Assembly (NCBI GenBank): GCA_022653735.1
Contig: JALCSU010000006.1
Location: 1 to 64,000, forward strand
Source: Bacteroidales bacterium
Lineage (GTDB): Bacteria; Bacteroidota; Bacteroidia; Bacteroidales; UBA932
Reading direction: 5' to 3'
DNA length: 64,000 nt
Positions 17,148-33,473 of the stretch are shown in pieces (positions within the stretch are counted from its first letter, which is position 1; each line of letters starts with the position of its first letter). Both the position numbers and the translations under genes were made by a program. A model generated the notes under the pieces. It saw nothing but the letters and a program-made list of their open reading frames with translations, did no database searches and was not told where the DNA came from.

Positions 17148-17165
17148 TAGAAATATGAATTGCTT

Positions 17166-18077
17166 ATGAAGTTGTTCGAAGACATGACTCAAGCTCGGCC
17201 ATTCATCAAATGGGTTGGAGGGAAGACACAGTTGCTGGATGAGGTTCGCAAATCGCTCCCTCGCGATTTCGCATCCCGTCAGCAAGTTACTTATGTGGAG
17301 CCGTTTGTTGGTGGTGGCGCCGTTATGTTCTGGATTCTTCAGGCATATCCCAACATTGAGAGAGCTGTCATCAACGACATCAACCAGGAACTTATCTGCA
17401 CCTATCGTGTAATCAAGGAGAACGTGGAGGAACTGATAGCAGAACTCGCTCATATCCAAGAAGAGTATATTCCCCTGGGCGCAGAAGACCGCAAGGCTTT
17501 TTTCATTGAGAAGAGAGCCCGTTTCAACACGAAGCAGACCACTCCGGTAGAAACGGCCGCACTCTTCATCTTCCTCAATAGGACGTGCTTTAATGGCCTG
17601 TACAGGGTCAATTCCAAAGGCGAATTCAATGTTCCTCACGGCAAGTATGCTAATCCCCGTATTTGCGATGCTGATAATCTCCGTGCATGTTCCAGTGTCC
17701 TTCAGAGGGTAGAAATCCTCTGCGGTGATTTCGCGGAAACTGGACGCTTCGCCGGCCCTAATACCCTGTTCTATTTTGACCCGCCGTATAAGCCCATCAC
17801 CGAAACTTCATCCTTCACGTCATATGCAAAGGAAGGCTTCGACGATAGCGAGCAACTCCGACTCCGCGACTTCTGTGACCAGATTAGCAAGGAAAAAGCC
17901 CTCTTTGTAGCCAGTAACTCTGATCCGAAGGACGTGAATCCTACAGAGAATTTCTTCGACACCATATACCAACACTTTGTCATCAAAAGAGTATCCGCCG
18001 CCAGAATGATTAATTCCGATGCTTCTGGCCGCGGCGCCATCTCTGAACTGATGATTTCTAACGTAGTTAACGCGTAA
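17166..18077 (+). CDS. dpnM: DNA adenine methyltransferase, D12 class (DpnM/Dam-like)
   Basis: The start is ATG 17166 (MKLFEDMTQARPFIKWVGGK), not the TTG two codons upstream. The 303-residue protein has motif X/I segments FIKWVGGKTQLLDE and YVEPFVGGGAVMFW near the N-terminus and the catalytic motif DPPY (YFDPPYKPI) near residue 205, in the alpha-class order of Dam and DpnM. It would methylate adenine in double-stranded GATC. It is first in a tight three-gene set with a DpnII-type endonuclease and a second methyltransferase. Confidence 0.93.
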   Translation: MKLFEDMTQARPFIKWVGGKTQLLDEVRKSLPRDFASRQQVTYVEPFVGGGAVMFWILQAYPNIERAVINDINQELICTYRVIKENVEELIAELAHIQEEYIPLGAEDRKAFFIEKRARFNTKQTTPVETAALFIFLNRTCFNGLYRVNSKGEFNVPHGKYANPRICDADNLRACSSVLQRVEILCGDFAETGRFAGPNTLFYFDPPYKPITETSSFTSYAKEGFDDSEQLRLRDFCDQISKEKALFVASNSDPKDVNPTENFFDTIYQHFVIKRVSAARMINSDASGRGAISELMISNVVNA

Positions 18078-18079
18078 GT

Positions 18080-18937
18080 ATGAGAGATTTTATGACTTGG
18101 TTGGCGGGCTTCCGCTCCGCCATAGCTGGCTATAAGTATTACACCGACTTTGAGAAGATTTACAAGAATGTAGACGCTATCAAGGTTGAGCTCAACATCA
18201 TGAATTCCCTAATAGGATGTCAGGATATTGAAAAGGGATTCGTGGCGCTGTACCGGCGTTATCCGGAAATCCTCAAGTGTATTCCTATCCTGCTTGCCAA
18301 GCGTGAATCTGACATCCTTACCGTGGACTTTGACGGCGAGCACGTCTGGAATTTCAAGAAGGCCAACTACCACATTGAGGAATACACTGTTTTTATGCGT
18401 GAGACCGGCCTGTTCGACCTCATGCAGCAGAAGCACATCCACAATCTGGTGGACTACGTTACCGGCGTAGAGACCGGCTTGGACTCCAATGCCCGTAAGA
18501 ATCGCGGTGGTCACGTGATGGAAGACCTGGTGGAAGGTTATCTTATCAAGGCCGGTCTGGAGAAGGATAAGACTTACTTCAAGGAGATGTACATCCACGA
18601 AATTGAGCAGAAATGGGGCATTGACCTGTCCTGCATCTCCAACGAGGGCGGCACAGAGAAACGCTTCGATTTCGTCATCAAGCGCCCCAATATGATTTAT
18701 GGCATCGAGACCAATTTCTACGCCAGCGGTGGCTCCAAACTTAATGAGACTGCCCGCAGTTACAAGACCATCGCCCTGGAGACCAAGAATCATCCCAAAT
18801 TCAAGTTCGTCTGGATTACTGATGGCCAGGGCTGGGGCTCTGCTCGTAATAACCTAAAGGAGACCTTCGACGTTTTGGAGAATCTCTACAATATCATGGA
18901 CCTCGATGAAGGTGTGATCGCATCGAAACTGATATAA
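18080..18937 (+). CDS. dpnB: Type II restriction endonuclease, DpnII/MboI family
   Basis: 285 residues. The sequence matches the DpnII-type endonuclease family: an N-terminal helical part, GLDSNARKNRGGHVMEDLVEGYL, and the catalytic stretch KRFDFVIKRPNMIYGIETNFY, where an Asp and Glu precede the core. A distinctive C-terminal VWITDGQGWGSARNNLKETFD is present. It would cut unmethylated GATC. It starts 2 bp after the methyltransferase gene and ends 5 bp before the next, so expression is coupled to protection. Confidence 0.9.
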   Translation: MRDFMTWLAGFRSAIAGYKYYTDFEKIYKNVDAIKVELNIMNSLIGCQDIEKGFVALYRRYPEILKCIPILLAKRESDILTVDFDGEHVWNFKKANYHIEEYTVFMRETGLFDLMQQKHIHNLVDYVTGVETGLDSNARKNRGGHVMEDLVEGYLIKAGLEKDKTYFKEMYIHEIEQKWGIDLSCISNEGGTEKRFDFVIKRPNMIYGIETNFYASGGSKLNETARSYKTIALETKNHPKFKFVWITDGQGWGSARNNLKETFDVLENLYNIMDLDEGVIASKLI

Positions 18938-21414: not shown

Positions 21415-23505
21415 ATGATTATCAACATTTTATCGGTCGATTTTATCACAGACGTAATCGACCTTGAGGTGAACAGAGAAAGAAAAGAACACGGACACAT
21501 CCGGAGTCTATTCAAAGACCAGTGTCCCGAACTGTGGGCTGCTGAGCCCACCCTCTCCGCCACCCGCCGTCTCTATTTCTCCATCACCAGCAACGCTCGT
21601 GAGTGTTTTGGTGATTCTTACTTTGCCCGCATCCGCCTTGGTGCTGATCGGGATCTGACTAAAAGCGTTTTAAAACAACGTCTTTACGACTATTTCCGAC
21701 AACGTGCCATTGTCGGTTATGATTTCGTAGACAACATCGAAGTCTGGATTGAGGACTCAGAACAAAAGCAGGAAGGCTGCACGCAGTACCTCCGTTTCTC
21801 CATTGTACCCAAAGACCAGACCGTCACTTCAGGATGGGAATTGCTCGTGTCATACAATGGGCACTCCATCGTATATGACACACCCCTTTCCGCCCTTGAC
21901 CTCAAAGCAACACGCTATAAGGTTATTGTTGGAGACGAAGTGGTTAAAGTAAGGGACCTCACTCCCGAGCAAAAACGAGAAATCTCCTCCATCTTTCCAG
22001 TCGTCAACAAGGAGCTGTCCAGAGAACTCGGTGTCATTGAGCATTATGAGAAGATTCCTAACCGCTATGCCGACACCCTGCCCAAGATTCGTTCATTCGC
22101 AAAAGAGTATCTATACACAGAAGAATTCAACTCCACAGTACTGAAGATAACCTGCAATGATTTCATCACGGTGCCTGACGACAAGCTAACCGAGGTAACA
22201 CAGGGCTCCAACGTGCTGCTCTTCGGCCGCAGCCAGATTAGTTTCGACCCGTACACCGGCTTATTCGGCAATCGAAATGGAGGCGGATACGGTCCGTACA
22301 GTGCAACAGAAAAAACAAACGTCCGCTTCTTTTTCATCGCTCAAGAGAGTCAGAAGGATGTTTGCCGGTCGCTCTACTGCATTCTGAAAGACGGAATGGT
22401 AAAGAATCCTTCCACCGGTGCGTACTTTCAGAAATACAAATCGCTTGCGGACGACATCCTGCAGCCTTTTAACACTGACAAGAATGGAAGCATCTTTTTT
22501 CAATCAGTTGAGACCGCTGTCGAGGACATACGAGCAGGCCTGGCAAAGAAGCAGTGGGATGACAACGCCTTCTACGTGGCTCTCTACATCAGTCCAGTAG
22601 ATCGTGATGACCCTAACCCGGAGAGGCACGACATATATTTCAAGGTCAAGGAAATGCTGCTGGAGAAAGGGGTCACCTCGCAGGCTATTTACAACGAGAA
22701 CCCTGGCAAGAATGCATTCCAGTTCCATCTTCCCAATATCAAAACCGCAATACTTGCCAAGATAGGTGGCATCCCCTGGCAGTTGCAGACACGCAAGAAA
22801 AGTAACGACGTTATCATAGGTGTCGGGGCATTCAAGTCCGAGAAGATTGGTAAGAGATACATTGGTAGTGCTTTCTGCTTCAATAATGAAGGTGTTTTCC
22901 AGAACTTCGACTGCTATCGAGATGATGACCTTGACAGCCTTGTGGGCGATATTCGTAAGGCATTGGGCCATTTCGTTATTGAGAGCGGTAATCCCGACCG
23001 TGTAATCATTCATTATTATAAGACGATGAAAGAAAGGGATTCTGCGAAGATTACGGATATGCTGTATAAACTCGGTTTCTCTATCCCGGTATATATCGTC
23101 ACCATCAATAAAACTGAGGCATCTGATTATGTCGGATTCGATACTGAAGACCCTGGCCTTATGCCGAAGAGCGGCACTATAGTCAGGCTCTCGTACAACG
23201 AATTCTTGTTGTATAACAATGCCCGCTATGATAAGCCTGGCAGATACGATTTCCTCTTCCCAGTCAAATTGAAACTGAAGAAGGTCTATAATAACGCGGC
23301 CCCCGAGGACAAAGAATTGCGCATGGACGAAGCCCGTGCCCTTCTTAACCAGGTCTACAAGTTCAGCCGGATGTATTGGAAGTCTGTTAAGCAACAGAAT
23401 CTGCCCATCACCATCAAATACCCGGAGATGGTCGCAGAGATAGTTCCTCACTTCCGCAAAGAAGAACTCCCCGCTTTCGGCAAAACAAACCTCTGGTTCT
23501 TGTAA
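21415..23505 (+). CDS. Long prokaryotic Argonaute, apparently catalytically inactive
   Basis: 696 residues, the length of long pAgos with N, PAZ-like, MID and PIWI regions. The best marker is KIGGIPWQL near residue 449, the conserved MID-PIWI junction. The PIWI fold follows, but the DEDX catalytic residues are not where expected: the first Asp position reads VIIGVGAF, the third reads IIHYYKTM (usually an Asp after the IIxxR strand), and the last region reads TIKYPEMVAE. Guide-directed binding without slicing is therefore likely, as in other inactive pAgos that act through a partner effector. No partner overlaps it downstream. It is divergent from the C-protein cassette. Confidence 0.85.
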   Translation: MIINILSVDFITDVIDLEVNRERKEHGHIRSLFKDQCPELWAAEPTLSATRRLYFSITSNARECFGDSYFARIRLGADRDLTKSVLKQRLYDYFRQRAIVGYDFVDNIEVWIEDSEQKQEGCTQYLRFSIVPKDQTVTSGWELLVSYNGHSIVYDTPLSALDLKATRYKVIVGDEVVKVRDLTPEQKREISSIFPVVNKELSRELGVIEHYEKIPNRYADTLPKIRSFAKEYLYTEEFNSTVLKITCNDFITVPDDKLTEVTQGSNVLLFGRSQISFDPYTGLFGNRNGGGYGPYSATEKTNVRFFFIAQESQKDVCRSLYCILKDGMVKNPSTGAYFQKYKSLADDILQPFNTDKNGSIFFQSVETAVEDIRAGLAKKQWDDNAFYVALYISPVDRDDPNPERHDIYFKVKEMLLEKGVTSQAIYNENPGKNAFQFHLPNIKTAILAKIGGIPWQLQTRKKSNDVIIGVGAFKSEKIGKRYIGSAFCFNNEGVFQNFDCYRDDDLDSLVGDIRKALGHFVIESGNPDRVIIHYYKTMKERDSAKITDMLYKLGFSIPVYIVTINKTEASDYVGFDTEDPGLMPKSGTIVRLSYNEFLLYNNARYDKPGRYDFLFPVKLKLKKVYNNAAPEDKELRMDEARALLNQVYKFSRMYWKSVKQQNLPITIKYPEMVAEIVPHFRKEELPAFGKTNLWFL

Positions 23506-23560: not shown

Positions 23561-23749
23561 TGGGAAGATAAAGGCCGATTGCGGACGGTGTCGATATGTG
23601 GGCCGATAAGGAAAGCGGTACTTGCCCTTCCGGGACGGACGAGCCGCCCGGAAAGGCAACCTTCAATGCCACCCTTCGCTGCAAGATTGTGGCCGGACAA
23701 GCCGCCCACAAACTTGCTGACGCCCTCCCCGCAGAAATAAGGAAAAGCG

Positions 23750-23869
23750 GTCACGGTCAGCAGTCAGTTGCTCCGCTCGCTGCGCTTGCTCCACAACTGC
23801 CAGCTCACCGTGCTGGTTTATCCCCCACCGCCCCCAGGGGCCATAATCGCCCGGGAGCCGTAGTGCCGG
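23750..23869. repeat. Dispersed repeat, copy 1
   Basis: About 120 bp from GTCACGGTCAGCAGTC to CCGGGAGCCGTAGTGCC closely resemble 32078-32205, including CCGCTCGCTGCGCTTGCTCC. The copy ends where the Vsr-like reading frame begins, so it may mark a recombination joint. Confidence 0.6.
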
Positions 23870-24413: not shown

Positions 24414-25226
24414 ATGAATATTATTGATTTAGATTTAATTTTAGACAGAAACTCCGATCTGGGAGACCGGGGTTTTCAGAGCGACGGAAGGACCACCAGT
24501 CTGATGTCAATGCCAAACGAGTTGAAAGGGTTTGAACCGAAGAATGAAGGTGAGTACATGTACAAGGAAGCGTATAGTTTCCTGGCCAACGACAATCCCG
24601 TGATGGGCAGGCACTTTTTGGAAAAAGCCTATGAATTGGGTAACTTTGCTGCTGGCAACGATTTGGCCTATGGTCTTTGTCACGGATGGTTCGGCGAGCG
24701 GGATTATGACACCGCCACTAAAATCTACCGGAAGCTGGCCCGCAAAGGAGACCCTGATGCCATGAACAACTACGCCTTCAGTTATCTGTTGGGAACGGGC
24801 GTAAAGAAGAACCTCCGGCTTGCCGAGTTCTGGATGTGGAAGGCCATCTGGAAAGGGAACATCCACGCGGCCGCCAATTATGCCCAACTGGTTCTGGAGA
24901 ACACGTTCAACAAAATCAGCAAGAGCCTGGGAATGTGGCTTTGCTTCTGGGCAGCAGATTGTGGCGAACCTACAGCGATGAACGACCTTGGCCTGAGCTA
25001 TGAAACCGGCATTTTGGTCAAAAAAGACCTCAAAAAGGCCTATGAGTGGTTCATGAAATCGGTAGAGCATGGCGGTGGAGCCTGCGCCGAATTCAACGTC
25101 TCCCGGTGCTACAGGTTCGGCCTGGGAGTAGAAGAGGACGAAAGGAAGGCCGATGCTTGGCAGAACCTGGCTATAGAACACGGATTTGACATTGAAGCAT
25201 ACAATAACCTATATGATCTCGGATAA
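24414..25226 (+). CDS. Sel1-repeat (SLR) protein
   Basis: The start is ATG 24414 (MNIIDLDLILDRNSD); 270 residues with no signal peptide. At least five Sel1-type helical repeats run from about residue 50 to the end, for example ALKIYRKLARKGDPDAMNNY-like and AYEWFMKSVEHGGGACAEFN. Such repeats form a superhelical scaffold for protein contacts. The gene overlaps the start of the deiminase-like gene by 14 bp, and the two are followed closely by two more genes, implying one operon with a shared role. A second Sel1 gene occurs in the element B cluster. Confidence 0.85.
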   Translation: MNIIDLDLILDRNSDLGDRGFQSDGRTTSLMSMPNELKGFEPKNEGEYMYKEAYSFLANDNPVMGRHFLEKAYELGNFAAGNDLAYGLCHGWFGERDYDTATKIYRKLARKGDPDAMNNYAFSYLLGTGVKKNLRLAEFWMWKAIWKGNIHAAANYAQLVLENTFNKISKSLGMWLCFWAADCGEPTAMNDLGLSYETGILVKKDLKKAYEWFMKSVEHGGGACAEFNVSRCYRFGLGVEEDERKADAWQNLAIEHGFDIEAYNNLYDLG

Positions 25227-26067
25227 ACAAACCAACGCTGTGTACCTGGCCGAAGGCCTGCAGCACTATATGCCCGCATTCAAGAGAATTCTTGACGAAC
25301 TCGACTCTGCGCGTGTCCATCTGCATACTCTTCCTCTCACCAAGTCCAAGAAGCATATCTGGGCGCGGGATTATATGCCCATCCAGCTCGATAAGGGCCG
25401 CTTCCTGCAGTATGCATATCACCCTGACTACCTCTATGGATTCGAGGACTTTATCCCTGATTATAAGGGCATCTGCAAAGAAATGAACCTCGAATGCGTC
25501 ACAACTGACATCATTATGGACGGCGGCAACGTGGTAAAGTGTGGCGACAAGGTCATTATGACCGACAAAATCATCAAGGAGAACCCGATGCGCTTCTATA
25601 AGGATTTGCTCAGAGAGCTGGAAAATCACTTCCAAGCGCAGATCGTTTTGATTTCCAGAGACCGATATGATCGCTATGGCCATGCAGACGGAATGGTCCG
25701 CTGGATCGACGGAAACCGCGTCCTCCTGAACAACTATGCCGATTTTGACCCGAAACTGGGGAAAGAACTGCGGAAGGAGCTGTCCGAGCATTTCACCGTG
25801 GAAGAACTGCGCTACGGCACCAACAAGCACCTCAAGATCAACTGGGCGTACATCAACTTCTTGCAGACGGAGAAATGTATCTTTGTGCCTGGGCTTGGTA
25901 TCGAAGAAGACCAGATGGCCGTCGAGCAGATCCAGAAGTTCTATCCCGATTACAATGTTCGTCTCGTACGCGATTGCTGGGACATCATCAAGGACGGCGG
26001 CGCCCTCAATTGCGTCAGCTGGAATATCCTTGCCGATGAACCCGAATGGTCACCGGAGGAAGCTTAA
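25213..26067 (+). CDS. Agmatine/peptidyl-arginine deiminase-family protein
   Basis: ATG 25213 (MISDKQTNAVYL) is preferred; 284 residues, shorter than the usual ~340-370 of agmatine deiminases. Family marks: WARDYMPIQ near residue 50, MDGGNVV near 102, H157 and D159 in YGHADGMVRWID, and the nucleophile C267 in DGGALNCVSWN. The residue before the Cys is Asn instead of the common His. Members hydrolyse guanidinium groups. Its place in a defence-like operon suggests a target other than polyamine precursors, such as protein arginine or a nucleotide-like guanidine, but that is inference. Confidence 0.8.
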   Translation: MISDKQTNAVYLAEGLQHYMPAFKRILDELDSARVHLHTLPLTKSKKHIWARDYMPIQLDKGRFLQYAYHPDYLYGFEDFIPDYKGICKEMNLECVTTDIIMDGGNVVKCGDKVIMTDKIIKENPMRFYKDLLRELENHFQAQIVLISRDRYDRYGHADGMVRWIDGNRVLLNNYADFDPKLGKELRKELSEHFTVEELRYGTNKHLKINWAYINFLQTEKCIFVPGLGIEEDQMAVEQIQKFYPDYNVRLVRDCWDIIKDGGALNCVSWNILADEPEWSPEEA

Positions 26068-26086
26068 CGTTTAGCCCTGCAACCTT

Positions 26087-27181
26087 ATGACACGTTTAGA
26101 AGAAGTATTGACACAATTCAACGCCCGTGAGGCGAATGAGAAGACCATCATTAAGGAGTTCCGGAAGATAGCAGAAGTCGTTTTCTGGGGTGGCTACTTC
26201 CTCGTGAACAAAAAGACGAGAATCTATCCCGTCGATATTGAGTTCTATCTTTATGGAGAGAAGGCTCGGGAAGAAGCTTGGATGCAGGATAAGAAAATGA
26301 TTCATAGGAAGACCGGCAAATACGATGTTCCATATTTCCCGAACAAAGGCTCATTGTATCCGCATACCTTTGGCATAGATGTCACTTTCGAGAATCCAGA
26401 TAAGGAGTATCGTGCTTCATTTCTTATCAGATCATATCGAAGGGACAACGGCAAAGTCGAAACGCATCCGTCATATCTCTGGGAAGATATGTTCGGAGAG
26501 CAGAGTTTCAGCGGTGAAGGCCTTAGGGTGATATGGAAGGACGAAGAGTCTACTGAGCCGAAGGAGATCATACAAAGCACCAGGCTCAACCTGAAAGACG
26601 AGAAGAAGGAGCAAGACCTGAAACCTTGGCGATTCTACAAGAAAAGCGAGCAAAAGAACTTGGAGTTTGCAAGGACCTTCGGATTCCCTCCGCTGATGTG
26701 TGATGAGCCGAAGATATTAATTCTCGGCACACTCCCGGGAGGCGAATCGTTGGCTCATAAGCAGTATTACTATTCCAATTCCAACCGCATCTGGGAGGTA
26801 TTAAGCCGTCTCAAAGGAGAACAGATGCCGATTGGTTATGAGCAGAAGCAAGCATTTCTGTCCAAACATCACATCGCTTTGTGGGATTACTACCAATCCG
26901 CCATTCGCCCTGACAGCAGCAACGACAAAGACATTCGTGATGGTAAGCCCAACGACATACTTGGCTTCATGGCCAAGCATCCGTCCATCAATGTCGTCGC
27001 CATCAACGGCTTCGGGAAATATGACGACTTCGGTGTGCAGATCGAGAGAGACTTGAAAAAGAATCCTGCACTGGCCAATGTGAAGGTTTTGCGCTTACCG
27101 GAGACCAGTGGGAGCAACAAGAACTATGGCTGGGGCGACCTGGACAAGCTATCCGCGGAATGGGAACAAATCTTTGACTGA
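26087..27181 (+). CDS. Fusion protein: unknown N-terminal domain plus family 6 uracil/hypoxanthine-DNA glycosylase-like domain
   Basis: 364 residues in two parts. Residues 1-180 (GGYFLVNKKTRIYPVDIEFYLYG, GSLYPHTFGIDVTFENPDKEYRASFLIRSY) form a domain I cannot name; it resembles other Bacteroidota hypothetical proteins. From about residue 207 the sequence matches the hypoxanthine/uracil-DNA glycosylase family 6 signature: ILILGTLPGGESLAHKQYYYSNSNRIWE and HHIALWDYYQSAIR. The enzyme would excise deaminated bases. It starts 20 bp after the deiminase-like gene and ends 5 bp before the membrane protein gene. Confidence 0.75.
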   Translation: MTRLEEVLTQFNAREANEKTIIKEFRKIAEVVFWGGYFLVNKKTRIYPVDIEFYLYGEKAREEAWMQDKKMIHRKTGKYDVPYFPNKGSLYPHTFGIDVTFENPDKEYRASFLIRSYRRDNGKVETHPSYLWEDMFGEQSFSGEGLRVIWKDEESTEPKEIIQSTRLNLKDEKKEQDLKPWRFYKKSEQKNLEFARTFGFPPLMCDEPKILILGTLPGGESLAHKQYYYSNSNRIWEVLSRLKGEQMPIGYEQKQAFLSKHHIALWDYYQSAIRPDSSNDKDIRDGKPNDILGFMAKHPSINVVAINGFGKYDDFGVQIERDLKKNPALANVKVLRLPETSGSNKNYGWGDLDKLSAEWEQIFD

Positions 27182-27704: not shown

Positions 27705-28289
27705 CTACAGCAATTCCGTCAGAATCCCAAGTTCCAGGGCCTCTGAGGCTGTAATGAACCAGTCTTTCTTCTTCTGCAGGACCTCGTTCAACTGCTCTTC
27801 AGTTACCTTCGTCTTGGATTTAATGATACTGAAAAGAATCTCGTTGATACGGGAAGCTTCAGCCACGGTATCCTCCATCTCCCGGAGTGTTCCGAACGAG
27901 AGGCCTGATACTTGGTGAATCATAAAGGTTGTATTTCGGTACGCCTTGCGCACCTTAGCGCCCAAGGCGACGATGACGCCCATTGACATGATCTTCCCTG
28001 TACAAATCACTTCAACAGGTGTGTTTGATGATTTGATGACATCGTGTAGCGCTAAACCATCATAGCATGCACCGCCATAGGTGGAGAGATAGAATTCAAT
28101 TGGCGTAAGTTTGGCCGGCGACGGATCTTGTCCATTATCAATGGCCCATTGCCGACACTGTTTCAGGTATTCCTGGTCAGAGATGTTGATTTTGACGATT
28201 TCCTTGATTGCGCTTTCCACTGTTGCGCTTTTGAATTCCCCAAAGAAGGTGAGCACTTTGTCCTTTGGCTCAAGTTGCTTTATTTCCAT
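27705..28289 (-). CDS. ClpP-like serine protease
   Basis: The start is ATG 28289 (MEIKQLEPKDKVLTFFGEF). 194 residues with the ClpP/crotonase fold pattern: IEFYLSTYGGACYDGLALHD, nucleophile S102 in IMSMGVIVALG, H125 in TTFMIHQVSG, and DWFITASEALELGIL at the end. It lacks a chaperone partner here, so it may be an independent protease as in phage and defence loci. It is divergently transcribed from the WYL regulator, with a shared inverted repeat between them. Confidence 0.85.
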   Translation of the reverse strand: MEIKQLEPKDKVLTFFGEFKSATVESAIKEIVKINISDQEYLKQCRQWAIDNGQDPSPAKLTPIEFYLSTYGGACYDGLALHDVIKSSNTPVEVICTGKIMSMGVIVALGAKVRKAYRNTTFMIHQVSGLSFGTLREMEDTVAEASRINEILFSIIKSKTKVTEEQLNEVLQKKKDWFITASEALELGILTELL

Positions 28290-28326
28290 ACTCTTATTCT
28301 TTTTCTGGCGACAAAGGTAATCGGGG

Positions 28327-28399
28327 CTTCGGCAAGATTCAGGCAAATGCACTTTTTCTATATTCTGCCATTATTTTGCCGAAGATATGGCTATCTTTG
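28327..28399. promoter_or_regulatory. Divergent control region between ClpP-like and WYL genes
   Basis: CTTCGGCAA (28327-28335) and TTGCCGAAG (28376-28384) are a perfect 9-bp inverted repeat. The left arm is next to TACCTTTG (minus strand, 28319-28312) and the right arm next to TATCTTTG (28392-28399), so each arm abuts one promoter -7 box. TGCCGAA copies recur at 30855-30893. Confidence 0.55.
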
Positions 28400-28408
28400 T
28401 GGTCAGAT

Positions 28409-29326
28409 ATGGCAAAGAATTATTTCAAATCTTACATTTGGCTACTGGAAACGCTCCAGAGCCGCGGGCCGCAGACGTTGGCTCAACTTAGGCAACTATG
28501 GAGGCGGAGTACGGTAAACGAATTCGGCAGTGACCTTGCCGCGCGCACGTTCGCGAATCATATTGAAGCAATATCCGACATCTTCGGTATCGAGATTGTT
28601 TGCGACCGTAGAGACAACACTTATAGCATCGTCAACGAAGAAGATATGGACGGCACAGGTATCCGCGCCTGGATGCTGGATGCCCTTAGCTTGAACTCCC
28701 TTCTCAACGAGAGCGCTGGCATGAAAGACCGAATCTTCTTCGAGAATGTGCCTTCCAGCCACCAGTTTCTGACCACCGTCATCCAGGCCATCCGTGACAA
28801 TCGGAAGCTGAAGGTTCGCTACCAGGGCTACCGGATGGACGAGGAACGGACCTTCGAGCTGGAGCCGTACTTTATCAGAGAATTCAAGCGCCGTTGGTAT
28901 CTGTATGGCCATAAGGATTACGACAAGGACTTCAAACCACACATGTACGCGCTTGATCGGATGCTCGAGGTGGAGATACTTCCCGATACGTTCAAGGTAC
29001 CGGAAGGTCTGGATGCCAAGGCCTGGTTCCAGTCTCTATACGGAGTGCGCAAGTATGACGATATGAAGAGCCAGCAGGTCCTCTTGAAGGTCCACGGCAA
29101 ACAGGTTCGCTACTTCCGCTCCCTTCCACTGCATAGCAGCCAGGAAGAGATCGAAACACACCGTGACCATAGCGTCTTTGCCTACAACCTTGCTCCTGAC
29201 TATGACTTTAAGCAGGATATTCTTTCGTTTGGTGATACCATTGAAGTCTTGGAACCGAAAACGCTTCGTACAGCAATCAAAGAAACGATCAATCAATTAA
29301 ACACCTATTATGATGATGAGCAATAG
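28409..29326 (+). CDS. WYL-domain transcriptional regulator (element A)
   Basis: The start is ATG 28409 (MAKNYFKSYIWLLETLQSRG). 305 residues: an N-terminal winged HTH-like part, then a WYL domain (IQAIRDNRKLKVRYQGYRM, EPYFIREFKRRWYLYGHKD) and a C-terminal WCX part. WYL proteins repress or activate defence genes and may sense nucleic acid or nucleotide ligands. The CTTCGGCAA inverted repeat just upstream is the likely operator. It overlaps the next gene by 17 bp. Confidence 0.88.
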   Translation: MAKNYFKSYIWLLETLQSRGPQTLAQLRQLWRRSTVNEFGSDLAARTFANHIEAISDIFGIEIVCDRRDNTYSIVNEEDMDGTGIRAWMLDALSLNSLLNESAGMKDRIFFENVPSSHQFLTTVIQAIRDNRKLKVRYQGYRMDEERTFELEPYFIREFKRRWYLYGHKDYDKDFKPHMYALDRMLEVEILPDTFKVPEGLDAKAWFQSLYGVRKYDDMKSQQVLLKVHGKQVRYFRSLPLHSSQEEIETHRDHSVFAYNLAPDYDFKQDILSFGDTIEVLEPKTLRTAIKETINQLNTYYDDEQ

Positions 29327-30281
29327 CAAGAGGTTGGACGAATCTGCCAAATCAAAAGGCCTGTATAAGTTTTTTCAAGGCAACGCGTTCCTTACTTCCG
29401 GTAACGTACAGCTAAAATCGAATTATTCCAAGGGCAAAGAGTCTCCTTGGTCACTCGCTTTTGCTGGACACTGTATAAAGGATATCTTCAAGATTGACGA
29501 TCCGACGTTTTGCTCCAAGTTCGTGCAAGCTATCAGCGGCGATGGACAAGAGGCTAATAAGATTACGACACTTCACTCCTCATCGCTTGCATCATTACTG
29601 GTGTTCTATTCGGTCAGTAAAGACAACCCCATCTATTTGACGGTTAATGGTAAAGAGGAGAAATTTATAGAGAGCCGATTTGAGGTTAAAAATGAGGTAA
29701 GTCCTGGTAGTGGTAATTACTCCAATGTTGATGTGGTCCTATTAGGCGAGAACTGCATTATGTACCTTGAATCTAAGTTCTCTGAGTATCTAGGGAGCAA
29801 GCCTGTTGAAGTGAAGAAGGTTGATTACTATGACAAGATTTATGAAAGACTAGCAGGCACACTCAAAGAGGCTGGTGTCCATTTAGTGGAAAAGGAGTCA
29901 AAGCGCTTTCTTGATAGCGTAGAAGATAAGTCTTTCTATAACGAGGGAGTCAAACAGATGATCTCCCACTATCTCGGCGTTACCACCGAGTTGATGAAAG
30001 GAGAGGATTGCTTTAGCGGGAAGAAGGTCGTTCTTGGAGAAATCCTCTTCAAATTTGGAGATAGAGTTCCTAAGGCTTCTGATAAATACCAATCTTATAA
30101 AGATGCATATAGCATTTTACAAAAAGGGCTTGCTCATTGCGCAGAGGAAGATGGCAAGGGACTCATTATCAACAATCTAATGACGTATCAGAGCGTTCTC
30201 GGTTCAGAAGCGAACCACAAATTCTTAATGAATCTACCTGAAAGCATACGCCAGTTCTATCGTTTCGATGAAATCATATAA
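29310..30281 (+). CDS. Putative PD-(D/E)XK-type nuclease
   Basis: 323 residues with no named domain. The segment NVDVVLLGENCIMYLESKFSEYL (around residue 145) matches the D...(D/E)-x-K core of PD-(D/E)XK nucleases, with Asp in VDVVL and Glu/Lys in ESK. This match is by eye and unaided by structure. The gene overlaps the WYL gene and is followed at 2 bp by a metallophosphoesterase gene, so the three are one operon. Confidence 0.6.
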   Translation: MMMSNSKRLDESAKSKGLYKFFQGNAFLTSGNVQLKSNYSKGKESPWSLAFAGHCIKDIFKIDDPTFCSKFVQAISGDGQEANKITTLHSSSLASLLVFYSVSKDNPIYLTVNGKEEKFIESRFEVKNEVSPGSGNYSNVDVVLLGENCIMYLESKFSEYLGSKPVEVKKVDYYDKIYERLAGTLKEAGVHLVEKESKRFLDSVEDKSFYNEGVKQMISHYLGVTTELMKGEDCFSGKKVVLGEILFKFGDRVPKASDKYQSYKDAYSILQKGLAHCAEEDGKGLIINNLMTYQSVLGSEANHKFLMNLPESIRQFYRFDEII

Positions 30282-30283
30282 CG

Positions 30284-30850
30284 ATGCTCATCAAGACCAG
30301 TAATAAGGCCATCTTCGCATTCTCCGACACCCACGGCAATCATCGCCACCTGCAGGTGCCGGAGAATGCAGATATTGTCATTTGTGCCGGTGATGCCGTG
30401 GAGGATGATCTAAAAGGCGTCGAGTATGATGATTTCATCTCTTGGTTCGGGGCGCTTCCGGCCAAATGGAAACTCTTTGTCCCGGGCAACCATGAACTAT
30501 CTTTTGACCTGAACCAAGCCAATGACATCATACGCAAGTTTGAGGCTGCCGGCATCACTGTTTTGCAGGATGCCGTAGAGGATTGCGACGGTGTAATTAT
30601 CGGCACTGTTTCCGGGAACGCAAGGATTGCCGATGAAGATATCCCCATCGATCTTGACATCCTTGTTACTCATTATCCACCATACGGCGTCCTCGATGAA
30701 GATCTGGGCTCCCCGGAGATACTCAACTTCGTTCTGAAGGCAAAACCCAAGTGGCATCTCTTCGGCCATATTCACGCAACTGAGGGACAACAGCTCCAGT
30801 TGGGCAGCACCACCTGCCAAAATATTTCCGTTTTTAACGCTATTTCTTAG
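30284..30850 (+). CDS. Metallophosphoesterase (calcineurin-like)
   Basis: 188 residues, almost only the catalytic core. All the metal-site motifs are present in order: SDTHGNH, GDAVED, GNHE, THYPPYG and GHIH. It could act on cyclic nucleotides, nucleic acid ends or phosphodiesters; the substrate cannot be told from sequence. It follows the nuclease-like gene at 2 bp. Confidence 0.88.
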   Translation: MLIKTSNKAIFAFSDTHGNHRHLQVPENADIVICAGDAVEDDLKGVEYDDFISWFGALPAKWKLFVPGNHELSFDLNQANDIIRKFEAAGITVLQDAVEDCDGVIIGTVSGNARIADEDIPIDLDILVTHYPPYGVLDEDLGSPEILNFVLKAKPKWHLFGHIHATEGQQLQLGSTTCQNISVFNAIS

Positions 30851-30854
30851 CTTC

Positions 30855-30893
30855 TGCCGAATTTCTGCCGAAGGTTCGGTTATTTTTGCCGAA
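30855..30893. repeat. Cluster of TGCCGAA operator-like repeats
   Basis: TGCCGAA occurs at 30855, 30866 and 30887, and CCGAAGGTTCGG (30868-30879) forms a short inverted repeat. The motif is the half-site of the inverted repeat at 28327-28384, suggesting the same regulator binds both. Confidence 0.5.
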
Positions 30894-30904
30894 AAAAGTA
30901 AGAT

Positions 30905-31366
30905 ATGGCAGAAATAATCAATCAAATCCCCGGTTACGAAAAAGGTCGTGTACAGCGCATCAACGCCACTGACGAAGTGAGCGAATCCTTCATCGTTGCC
31001 CAGATGGCCGATGACCTCCGCAAGAAGTGGAACACCTCCGTCCTCTGCGTCTCTCTGGACGGCCACAAAGAGACCATCGAATCCTTGATTTCTCAGGAGA
31101 AGGCAGTCGGCAGGGTATATGTCCTGGATCAGAAGAACCCCGAGTTTGAAGTGGTCTACCGCAAGGCCACCGGCATCATCAACCGCCGCTTCGTCCGCGC
31201 CCTCATCATCAGCGGAGCAGAGCGTCTGACCGCCAAGTTCTTCAAAGACCGCCCGGAGAAAGGTCAAGAATGGATAACCAGTCGCCTTGAAGGGCTGTCT
31301 GGTGGCATGGGACTCCCTGTCATCCTCGTTGAAGTCCACGAGGAATCCGCTGAAATTCAATCTTAA
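30905..31366 (+). CDS. Unknown 153-aa protein
   Basis: Soluble, mixed alpha/beta protein (SVLCVSLDGHKETIESLISQEK; FVRALIISGAERLTAKFFKD). I recognise no family; the alternating beta strands and helices would suit a Rossmann-like fold. It lies just behind the TGCCGAA repeat cluster, so it may belong to the WYL regulon. It is followed 14 bp later by a secreted protein gene. Confidence 0.65.
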   Translation: MAEIINQIPGYEKGRVQRINATDEVSESFIVAQMADDLRKKWNTSVLCVSLDGHKETIESLISQEKAVGRVYVLDQKNPEFEVVYRKATGIINRRFVRALIISGAERLTAKFFKDRPEKGQEWITSRLEGLSGGMGLPVILVEVHEESAEIQS

Positions 31367-31380
31367 TAATACTTCATCCA

Positions 31381-31881
31381 ATGAAACGAACAATTCTTAT
31401 CGTGATGCTGGTTCTATCCGGCATCCTGGGCCACGCCCAAAGCACAAATCCGCTGAACTATAGCGGTCGTATGTACGTCGAGGCCATTGAAATCTACGCC
31501 ACGCCTCGATACATTTCCTATGAGGACCACGCCATCGTATCCCAGCAGATGCGCATTCCGTCAGTCGAAATCACCAAGATTGACATGGACTTTGAGAAAG
31601 GGACCGTGACCGTCAAGGATAACGAAATGAAAATCAGGGTCAACGGCTGCAAGAGATATGAGGCCGATCATGGTTGGAAAGTAGTCGTCTATATGGAATT
31701 GGTCAATGAGGGAGATAAGGCCGAATTGGTCTGGCCGGAGTTCGGGAAGCCATATTTCCAGCAAATCACAAAGGTCGATGATGGCGTCAAGATTGCCAGG
31801 ATGATTCTATCCCGAAAGCCATACGTGGCCACTGAAGAAGAAGCATTAATGGACCTGCTGCAGGGATTGGGCACGATGTAA
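31381..31881 (+). CDS. Small secreted protein of unknown function
   Basis: 166 residues with a clear signal peptide, MKRTILIVMLVLSGILGHAQ, probably cleaved after GHAQ. The mature part is beta-rich and polar, without a lipobox cysteine or recognised domain. Downstream lies the long non-coding stretch. Confidence 0.7.
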   Translation: MKRTILIVMLVLSGILGHAQSTNPLNYSGRMYVEAIEIYATPRYISYEDHAIVSQQMRIPSVEITKIDMDFEKGTVTVKDNEMKIRVNGCKRYEADHGWKVVVYMELVNEGDKAELVWPEFGKPYFQQITKVDDGVKIARMILSRKPYVATEEEALMDLLQGLGTM

Positions 31882-33407
31882 CAATAAAGCGGTCAAGCCC
31901 TCTTCACTACGCTAAAGCTCCGTTCAGAAGGCTTGGTTCCGTCCTCCGGGGCACAGAGCGCCCCTACGAACTCCACTTGTGCCAGCTCCACTGCGAGACT
32001 CTTCCCTACGGGCAAAGCCACTCCGGTCAGAGACTCGCGGCCGTTCCGCGGCGCGCTTCGCGCATTAAGAAAAGAAGGTCACGGCCAGCAGTCGGTTGTT
32101 CCGCTCGCTGCGCTTGCTCCACAACCGCCAGCTCGCCGTGCTGGTCAGTCCCCCTCCAGCTCCCCGAGGGGAGAGCATAAACGCCCGGGAGCCGCAGTGC
32201 CAGCACGGCCGTCCCTGCCCCGAATCCGCGAACATTAACATAATCCCATCGGGATTGTGTAACTCCTCGCTCGACCGGCATCACCCGCTTGAAGGGCATC
32301 ATTATTCGACGGGACACTGCCCCGCCCCAACGTCCTGCATGCTGCGGGTTAGCACAATCCGGATTATGTTAAGTACGCTCCGTCAGTAAGTTGCGAGGGT
32401 TCTACCTCCGAACTCCCGGGCGAGGCGGCGGCAGGAGAGGAGTTCGCTCAGGGAGGGGACCACCCCTCCCCTCCGTCGCTCACTCCGCACTTTGCGCGTC
32501 TTCGTAGGACCGTCAGTGCCGTGCCGTCCCCGCTCCAGTTGTCGTCTCCTCCGCAAGCTCCGGAGACCACAACTTCCGCTACGTTCTTCAACAGGAGGCT
32601 TAGGTGGTGTTCGTGGGCGCAAAGTGCCGCCACGAAGACCGTCTGTGCTTCTCGACCGTCATCTCTCGCATTCAGCGTCGGTGCAGTGCGGGCATCCTGC
32701 CGCCTTAGGCACCTGCCGGTGCTGGGTCGCTCTCTCTCCGTAAGCGAGGCAGTCGGACAAGCCGCCAGCCTCGCTTACTCCGCTCCGCTCCTCGGTAAGC
32801 CTACGGCTTGGTTATCCCCGGCCGCTATTCCTCCACACCTCTGCCGGGGTAAACCCCGACAGAAGTGTTCCGGGCAGCCGGGAGGCAGCCGTTCCGGCTG
32901 CTGGCGCAGACAGTGTCGAAACAAGTCCGCCACAGACTGCGCCGGAGCCTCAATGCCAGGCAGCATACGCTGCCGCGAACGTCGTACCGCTATCCGGGCA
33001 AGTGAGCCGTCCCGGCTCAGTCCGGTGAGGCCGTCTGTCCACCCTTCGCGTCCGGTCTCCTCCGCTCCATTGCTCCGCCCTGACGGGCTCCGCAGTATTC
33101 CGCTCCAGAGCCCAGCCGCCCCCACGACGCCAGACCGCCTCCCCGGACACGCTCCACTTCGTTCCGCGTCCTATGGCACTGCCAGACTCTTAGCCGCCAC
33201 CCGCAATCCCTTCGCACACCACCCCGGCGACTAAGAGACTGGACAGCACCATAGGCCACCCTATTGTCCTTCGATTCAGCGTCGGTGCTAACACCGGGCG
33301 ACAACCCTCGAGCGACCGGCGAAGAAAGGGTATAAATATATATCAGGGAAGCAGCGGCTCCCGCCGCTGCGGGTGCTTTGAATGTTGGTTAAATCGCTGA
33401 TTTTTGG
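31882..33407. other. GC-rich stretch of about 1.5 kb without a convincing gene
   Basis: ORFs here are mutually overlapping in several frames and rich in Ser, Arg and Pro, typical of non-coding GC-rich DNA. It contains dispersed repeat copy 2 (32078-32205), a hairpin ACATAATCCCATCGGGATTGTGT-like near 32236, and ATTCAGCGTCGGTGC twice (near 32679 and 33275). It could be a decayed element or encode a large structured RNA. Nothing else recognised. Confidence 0.5.
32078..32205. repeat. Dispersed repeat, copy 2
   Basis: Matches 23750-23869 over most of its length (CCGCTCGCTGCGCTTGCTCC, CGCCCGGGAGCCG). See copy 1. Confidence 0.6.
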
Positions 33408-33415
33408 TACCTTTG
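33385..33415 (+). promoter_or_regulatory. Promoter of the 33474 gene
   Basis: TTG (33385-33387) and TACCTTTG (33408-33415) are 20 bp apart. Confidence 0.6.
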
Positions 33416-33473
33416 TATTGGCTCCGAGGTTCCTATTTGCTACCTCTCAACCCAAAACTTGTAAACTTAGGCT

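Follow-up and report, generated by a model that had tools for sequence, protein, structure and literature searches.

Bacteroidales are dominant in the gut, use an unusual -33/-7 promoter and, to our knowledge, mostly lack LexA. By what means they sense DNA damage or infection is a largely open question, on which a gene cluster of the Bacteroidales bacterium assembly GCA_022653735.1 bears. The cluster lies in a 64,000-nt stretch of contig JALCSU010000006.1 (the window; host genome, 2.45 Mb) and encodes a ClpP-like serine protease and, divergently, a WYL-domain regulator, a nuclease-like protein, a calcineurin-like metallophosphoesterase (MPE) and a 153-aa protein (family u153). An earlier note, made from the sequence alone, had proposed that these five genes form a WYL regulon with a shared TGCCGAA operator. 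Are the genes indeed controlled together, by what kind of switch, and to what end? The account that best explains the whole, to which we give slightly better than even chances, is an inducible stress or defence cassette under one local WYL activator.

One composite element, TGCC-N7-TGCCGAA-N8-TAnnTTTG, is common to all three promoters of the locus (Table 1). Direct reading of the gap between the protease and WYL genes confirmed the perfect inverted repeat described earlier, with 9-bp arms CTTCGGCAA (28327-28335) and TTGCCGAAG (28376-28384) 40 bp apart; on the + strand, 49 bp separate the starts of the divergent TGCCGAA copies. Each arm does lie beside a -7 box: at both the ClpP-like and the WYL promoter, TAnnTTTG is found exactly 15 nt beyond the first base of TGCCGAA. 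The repeat is, however, not a dimer operator: it is two divergent promoters, and in each of them the arm forms that half of a direct repeat, TGCC-N7-TGCCGAA, which is nearer to the promoter's own -7 box, at a fixed spacing of 8 nt. For the ClpP-like gene, the ATG at 28289 was preferred over a longer GTG start at 28352, because the latter puts the promoter inside the gene. The three TGCCGAA copies reported before the 153-aa gene are also present, together with a further -7 box that had gone unmentioned; the third copy, which overlaps this box, is possibly a self-limiting site or a fixed initial transcribed sequence.

Bare TGCCGAA occurs 21 times in the window against 10.2 expected (about twice chance), mostly in coding sequence; the composite element, by contrast, greatly exceeds chance expectation. 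Across 39 related loci, 42 of 224 copies had a perfect TAnnTTTG exactly 15 nt downstream; the next commonest offsets, -6 (17 copies) and +26 (6 copies), correspond to the third copy in the 153-aa promoter and to the upstream half-site, respectively, and every other offset was found three times at most. The upstream TGCC half-site had been left out of the search pattern, so that its conservation 11 bp before TGCCGAA is unselected (G in 41, C in 40 and C in 38 of 41 unique sites). The consensus of these sites, TTcTGCCA-n-wTTTTTGCCGAAG-N7-TAtcTTTGc, fits all three window promoters. In all 41 composite sites TTTG is missing from the -33 position (18-22 nt ahead of the -7 box), and the direct TGCC half-sites, one helical turn apart, stand in for the -33 box. 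In many relatives the TGCCGAA start lies 30-32 nt ahead of the WYL ATG, and the triple array with its 11/21-bp spacing recurs at loci L025, L027, L044, L047 and L056.

The 21-bp TGCCGAA pair alone gave mostly coding-looking chance matches in 349 genomes, and the -7 box was therefore added to the search pattern. TGCCGAA-N8-TAnnTTTG then occurred three times in the host genome, always at this locus, and 40 times in 20 genomes with this WYL family, compared with two matches in the backwards control; three of the 40 (G649:C6, G646:C12, G646:C44) sit on contigs other than that of the WYL cassette. The full element had four matches across 393 Bacteroidales genomes, three of them at this locus, and none in the backwards control. 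A relaxed form, TGC-N8-TGCNGAA-N8-TAnnTTTG, was present in at least one copy in 31 of 35 WYL loci and was absent from both the backwards control and 20 first-order Markov simulations of the same 532 kb, so that conservation of the motif in homologous loci, a test set beforehand, was borne out. The promoter class is linked near-exclusively to this WYL family, which makes the WYL protein the obvious candidate regulator of a dedicated regulon and provides a promoter class whose element identifies targets genome-wide. A chromosome-wide SOS-like regulon was also considered and is ruled out, the composite element being confined to the locus.

Table 1. Genes and promoter features of the WYL cassette, in window coordinates.
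Feature	Positions	Strand	Details
ClpP-like serine protease, 194 aa	27705-28289	-	ATG at 28289
ClpP-like promoter	28312-28345	-	TGCC 28345-28342; TGCCGAA 28334-28328; -7 box TACCTTTG 28319-28312
WYL-operon promoter	28366-28399	+	TGCC 28366; TGCCGAA 28377; -7 box TATCTTTG 28392-28399
Helix-turn-helix (HTH)-WYL-WCX regulator, 305 aa	28409-29326	+	Pfam WYL 52.8 bits, WCX 41.6 bits
Nuclease-like protein, REase-ARP family, 323 aa	29310-30281	+	Overlaps WYL stop; Pfam PF22558
Calcineurin-like MPE, 188 aa	30284-30850	+	Pfam PF00149, 44.3 bits
DnaB-like gene promoter	30855-30888	+	TGCC(GAA) 30855; TGCCGAA 30866; -7 box TATTTTTG 30881-30888
Third TGCCGAA copy before 153-aa gene	30887-30893	+	Overlaps -7 box (TATTTTTGCCGAA)
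DnaB-like protein (u153), 153 aa	30905-31366	+	Profile, AlphaFold2 (AF2), Foldseek
Sixth gene (sp166), 166 aa	31381-31881	+	Apparent signal peptide; 14-bp gap after 153-aa gene

The regulator exceeds the Pfam cut-offs for both WYL and WCX; no HTH profile matched, and its HTH is predicted from the conserved N-terminus. Searched against the Protein Data Bank (PDB), the profile of the WYL family found PafBC first and DriD-like entries next. PafBC acts at a -26 motif, inserts between sigma domain 4 and DNA, and requires single-stranded DNA (ssDNA) (PMC11804915); SiwR likewise needs its -26 region for activity (PMC10693628), and the DriD site covers a poor -35 element (PMC12340889). The protein described here shares with these regulators the HTH-WYL-WCX organization and a predicted site that covers a poor -35 region or lies just ahead of it (at about -26 for PafBC and SiwR). 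In contrast to them, it is associated with the -7 promoter of Bacteroidota, direct repeats of TGCC spaced 11 bp apart and three local promoters rather than a chromosome-wide regulon, and it is presumed to be a homodimer. The regulator can be described as a PafBC/DriD variant whose phylum and promoter architecture are new for this type, and both the geometry and the structural matches make it fairly probable that it is an activator.

Is the set of genes under this control a fixed unit? A scan of genome contigs with six WYL proteins identified 40 loci, to which Bacteroidales contributed the great majority. Of 36 loci covered by a census, the MPE was found in 20, DnaE-like proteins in 11, ClpP-like, IetA-like AAA and metallo-beta-lactamase (MBL) proteins in five each, SLOG proteins in four and RtcB with an RF-1 protein in three; REase-ARP-type families (REase, n17, n59 and n62, each with its own profile) occur in 17, and proteins without a Pfam match (n5, n8, n55) fill the nuclease slot in others. 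Comparison with close relatives showed where the exchange takes place. Between the window and L025, whose WYL protein is 93% identical, nucleotide identity is 87% over 28282-29256 (promoters and WYL gene), vanishes over the nuclease and resumes at 80% over 30299-31880. With L026 the window shares 27707-29256 and then 30843-31269, and L027, L028 and L056 break from it near ~29256 and ~30850. The breakpoints fall at gene borders: where the ClpP and MPE genes begin, at the 3' end of WYL and at the second promoter. The sixth gene is probably co-transcribed with the 153-aa gene as part of the cassette; its family recurs in eight of the 36 loci and in L038 is directly divergent from WYL. The five-gene regulon proposed earlier thus holds as one dedicated regulon with a motif kept in relatives; it does not hold as a fixed gene unit, and a sixth gene probably belongs to it. 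Co-occurrence of the genes, likewise expected, applies in part: the WYL gene, the promoters and often the 153-aa gene persist, whereas the protease, nuclease and MPE genes are swapped between close relatives. A constant spine with exchanged effectors is typical of conflict systems.

Several relatives merit separate mention. A short C-terminal MPE remnant lies between cassette genes in L035 (~+1479) and L021 (~9127-8981, minus strand), a trace of past exchange. In L034, L040 and L043 the cassettes are extended by genes of an RNA-repair module (MBL-fold, RtcB and the RF-1-type, PrfH-like protein), which shares this promoter class or lies beside it. A WYL protein identical to that of the window is encoded on contig L024 (JALHHV010000075.1) of a metagenome-assembled genome labelled Desulfovibrio, probably through contamination.

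The 153-aa protein, left as an unknown by the note, is a DnaB-derived pseudo-ATPase, a RecA-fold domain with a replaced Walker A loop. The u153 family profile matches DnaB (2r6a/2vye, E=2.5e-4), collinear over the RecA fold, and the AF2 model (predicted local distance difference test (pLDDT), 87.5) retrieves DnaB-type helicases as the top Foldseek matches in both the PDB and viral libraries (E ~1e-6). Independently, the profile picks a 493-aa frame in a relative's genome (E 7e-5), presumably its cellular dnaB. The Walker A region, GxxxxGKT/S in DnaB, reads ATDEVSESF in the window protein and is lost likewise across the family; the N-terminal domain of DnaB is absent from the 153-aa protein.

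A second replisome component is represented among the relatives. Their DnaE-like members range from PHP+palm+fingers proteins of 719-840 aa down to fragments of 174-445 aa. In the six longest, the third catalytic aspartate (Taq KMDFLGL) is always replaced, by N in four, the first catalytic pair is also lost in two, and the PHP motifs are intact in five. One example has 48-52% identity to host DnaE (over the PHP part) versus ~31-35% to phage DnaE (overall), and these catalytically impaired paralogues are probably host-derived. A profile search of the window found no DnaE-like gene, and it carries the DnaB-like part only. Replisome-derived, catalytically impaired parts thus recur in these cassettes, and the helicase mimic is a recurrent core part of a modular cassette.

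The ClpP-like protein scores 86.8 bits against Pfam CLP_protease; when aligned to ClpP 4jcr, S102 and H125, correctly numbered in the note, are kept together with D176, which completes the triad. Its best match is the PHROG head maturation protease phrog_94 (109 bits), and the NCBIfam ClpP and head-maturation models all score below cut-off (TIGR00493, 58 bits versus 308.6). It is therefore closest to the phage head-maturation-protease type and not to housekeeping ClpP. The nuclease-like protein lies just above the PF22558 (REase-ARP) cut-off (30.3 versus 27 bits), and its D141-x12-E154-S-K156 and Q216xxxH220 motifs are kept without change by all 12 relatives compared, which extend to 17% identity. 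Its relatives are sparse and patchy (11 of 300 genomes of the family), and none was found on plasmids. We infer from these motifs that it cuts DNA. In the MPE all metal-binding motifs are intact (SDTH, GDxxE, GNHE, THYPP, GHIH), and distant relatives (33%) occur in Flavobacterium phages. The MPE also matches the PADLOC candidate PDC-S10 (134 bits), for whose own context no description was found in the open-licence literature; here the MPE is one swappable part of a WYL operon.

Taken together, these features suggest how the cassette may operate. The WYL protein would bind a nucleic acid as its signal, in all likelihood ssDNA that arises when phages replicate or DNA is damaged, and, once activated, would occupy the TGCC-N7-TGCCGAA repeat in place of the -33 element and recruit RNA polymerase to the three -7-box promoters. 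The predicted outputs are the ClpP-like protease, the WYL-nuclease-MPE operon, which would provide positive feedback, and the DnaB-like gene with the gene for the putative secreted protein. The nuclease and phosphoesterase would act on nucleic acid, and the DnaB-like protein might, more speculatively, dock on a partner in the replisome and thereby steer the effectors or block the fork. Effectors are exchanged among relatives, with the switch and often the DnaB mimic persisting. A bolder formulation, which we consider doubtful, would see in these Bacteroidales loci a new class of inducible immune cassette. Through a promoter class of its own, the WYL activator would drive catalytically dead replisome parts of host origin (pseudo-DnaB in about half of the loci, pseudo-DnaE in others), and these would serve as decoys or as targeting subunits that bring interchangeable nucleases, phosphoesterases or proteases to phage or damaged-DNA forks. 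If the mimic does steer effectors to forks, immunity would be aimed at replication in a new way.

A number of observations weigh against this account. Both ssDNA as the signal, taken from PafBC and DriD, and the replisome as the target of the DnaB-like protein are suggested by analogy. The DnaB-like gene was detected in 18 of the 36 WYL loci, leaving half without a detectable copy. TTTG occupies the -33 position in 11 of 103 other candidate -7 boxes of the same loci, a contrast with the composite sites that is modest and suggestive. Although the AF2 model of the nuclease-like protein is confident (pLDDT 91), Foldseek returned no PDB match below E=0.1, and its identity as a nuclease is therefore deduced from sequence motifs. 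Finally, WYL relatives with 36-38% identity are encoded without the composite element on secondary replicons of Segatella copri DSM 18205, S. hominis and Prevotella sp. E2-28 (L128, L129 and L130, respectively). These adjoin metallophosphoesterase, PLD, HAD, AAA, nuclease, MBL and DUF262 genes, and their hosts offer a cultured model for the wider family.

As to the biological role, we consider anti-phage defence about an even call, and sequence does not separate it from a local response to DNA damage. A competing proposal, somewhat less probable than not, concerns this role and overlaps with the favoured account on the switch: a LexA-free, SOS-like local regulon for DNA-damage tolerance or replication restart, in which pseudo-DnaB and pseudo-DnaE reshape the host replisome as ImuA and ImuB do. 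With the imuA-imuB-dnaE2 mutagenesis cassette the present locus has in common a putative damage-type regulator, a RecA-fold pseudo-ATPase and, at related loci, a DnaE paralogue. Here, in contrast, no Y-family protein was seen, the RecA-fold protein is DnaB-derived, a nuclease, an MPE and a protease are present, and the DnaE-like proteins of the relatives lack the third catalytic aspartate. The closest solved regulators, PafBC and DriD, are DNA-damage activators, the DnaE-like part is nearer to host than to phage DnaE, and neighbouring modules include deoxyinosine glycosylase, SLOG/DprA-like and RtcB-release-factor genes, all of which favour a damage response. However, the patchy distribution, the effector swaps at gene borders, the nuclease, the phage-type protease and the IetA-like AAA partners resemble a conflict system, and the composite element has no chromosome-wide regulon.

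Alternatively, the WYL protein could be a repressor of the BrxR/CapW type that is released from the promoters by a signal, so that the cassette is derepressed on infection. The WYL regulators reported beside phage defence systems, BrxR and CapW, are repressors (BrxR: PMC9122601), and they too are encoded beside a nuclease and defence-like genes. Moreover, the sites described here cover the sigma-4 contact region, from which a WYL protein could repress, and the third TGCCGAA copy covers the -7 box of the DnaB-like promoter; both observations count against activation. BrxR, however, recognizes closely spaced inverted repeats, with 11-bp arms and a 5-bp spacer, on the downstream side of the -10 element (PMC9122601), whereas the present sites are direct repeats 11 bp apart, 8 nt upstream of a -7 box that lacks a -33 partner; the inverted repeat has its arms 40 bp apart, and no genes of the bacteriophage exclusion (BREX) or cyclic-oligonucleotide-based anti-phage signalling (CBASS) systems accompany the regulator. 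Neither BrxR nor CapW structures were among the PDB matches of this WYL family. Since a site that stands in for the upstream promoter element, at a constant spacing from the -7 box, is the arrangement employed by WYL activators, and since the best structural matches are PafBC and DriD, an ssDNA-responsive activator fits better, and we regard repression as the less likely mode.

That the genes are a decaying mobile element or a chance accessory cluster without joint function, as the mosaic breakpoints, the MPE remnants of L021 and L035 and the nearby Argonaute and restriction-modification genes might suggest, is highly improbable given that the promoter element is kept in 31 of 35 loci although their flanks differ, that protease, MPE and nuclease have all kept their catalytic residues, and that the WYL protein was not found among the viral contigs of IMG/VR.

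A phage origin of the cassette was also considered and rejected: besides this absence from IMG/VR, u153 was not found in phage records and the DnaE-like proteins are nearer to the host. Phage-leaning exceptions are the ClpP-like protein, which does look phage-type, and the distant MPE relatives in Flavobacterium phages.

No published description of this gene set was found in the open-licence literature, which is weak evidence of absence. Some WYL relatives carry RtcB with an RF-1-type protein, or HAD_SAK_2, as do the RtcB-PrfH and Swiss-Army-Knife (SAK) RNA-repair clusters; unlike these clusters, the locus in the window encodes neither RtcB nor a release factor nor a SAK protein.

The surroundings of the cassette fit a defence island. 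A long prokaryotic Argonaute (pAgo) of 696 aa is encoded nearby (21415-23505, +; PADLOC 700 bits), and a type II restriction-modification pair, with the DNA methyltransferase gene first and the restriction enzyme gene second, lies at 17160-18937 (+; PADLOC 331 and 336 bits). A PAD_porph deiminase gene and the gene for a deoxyinosine-glycosylase fusion (TIGR04274 above cut-off) occupy window positions 25186-27181 (+); the pair recurs on either side of the WYL cassette in L025, L056 and L057, PAD alone occurs in L041, and no composite promoter was found upstream of these genes in the window. A G+C-rich non-coding repeat is present at 32069-32201 and 23742-23867, the two copies being 83% identical, and the 1.5-kb stretch that follows the cassette (31881-33450) is conserved with the REase locus L019 of another species.

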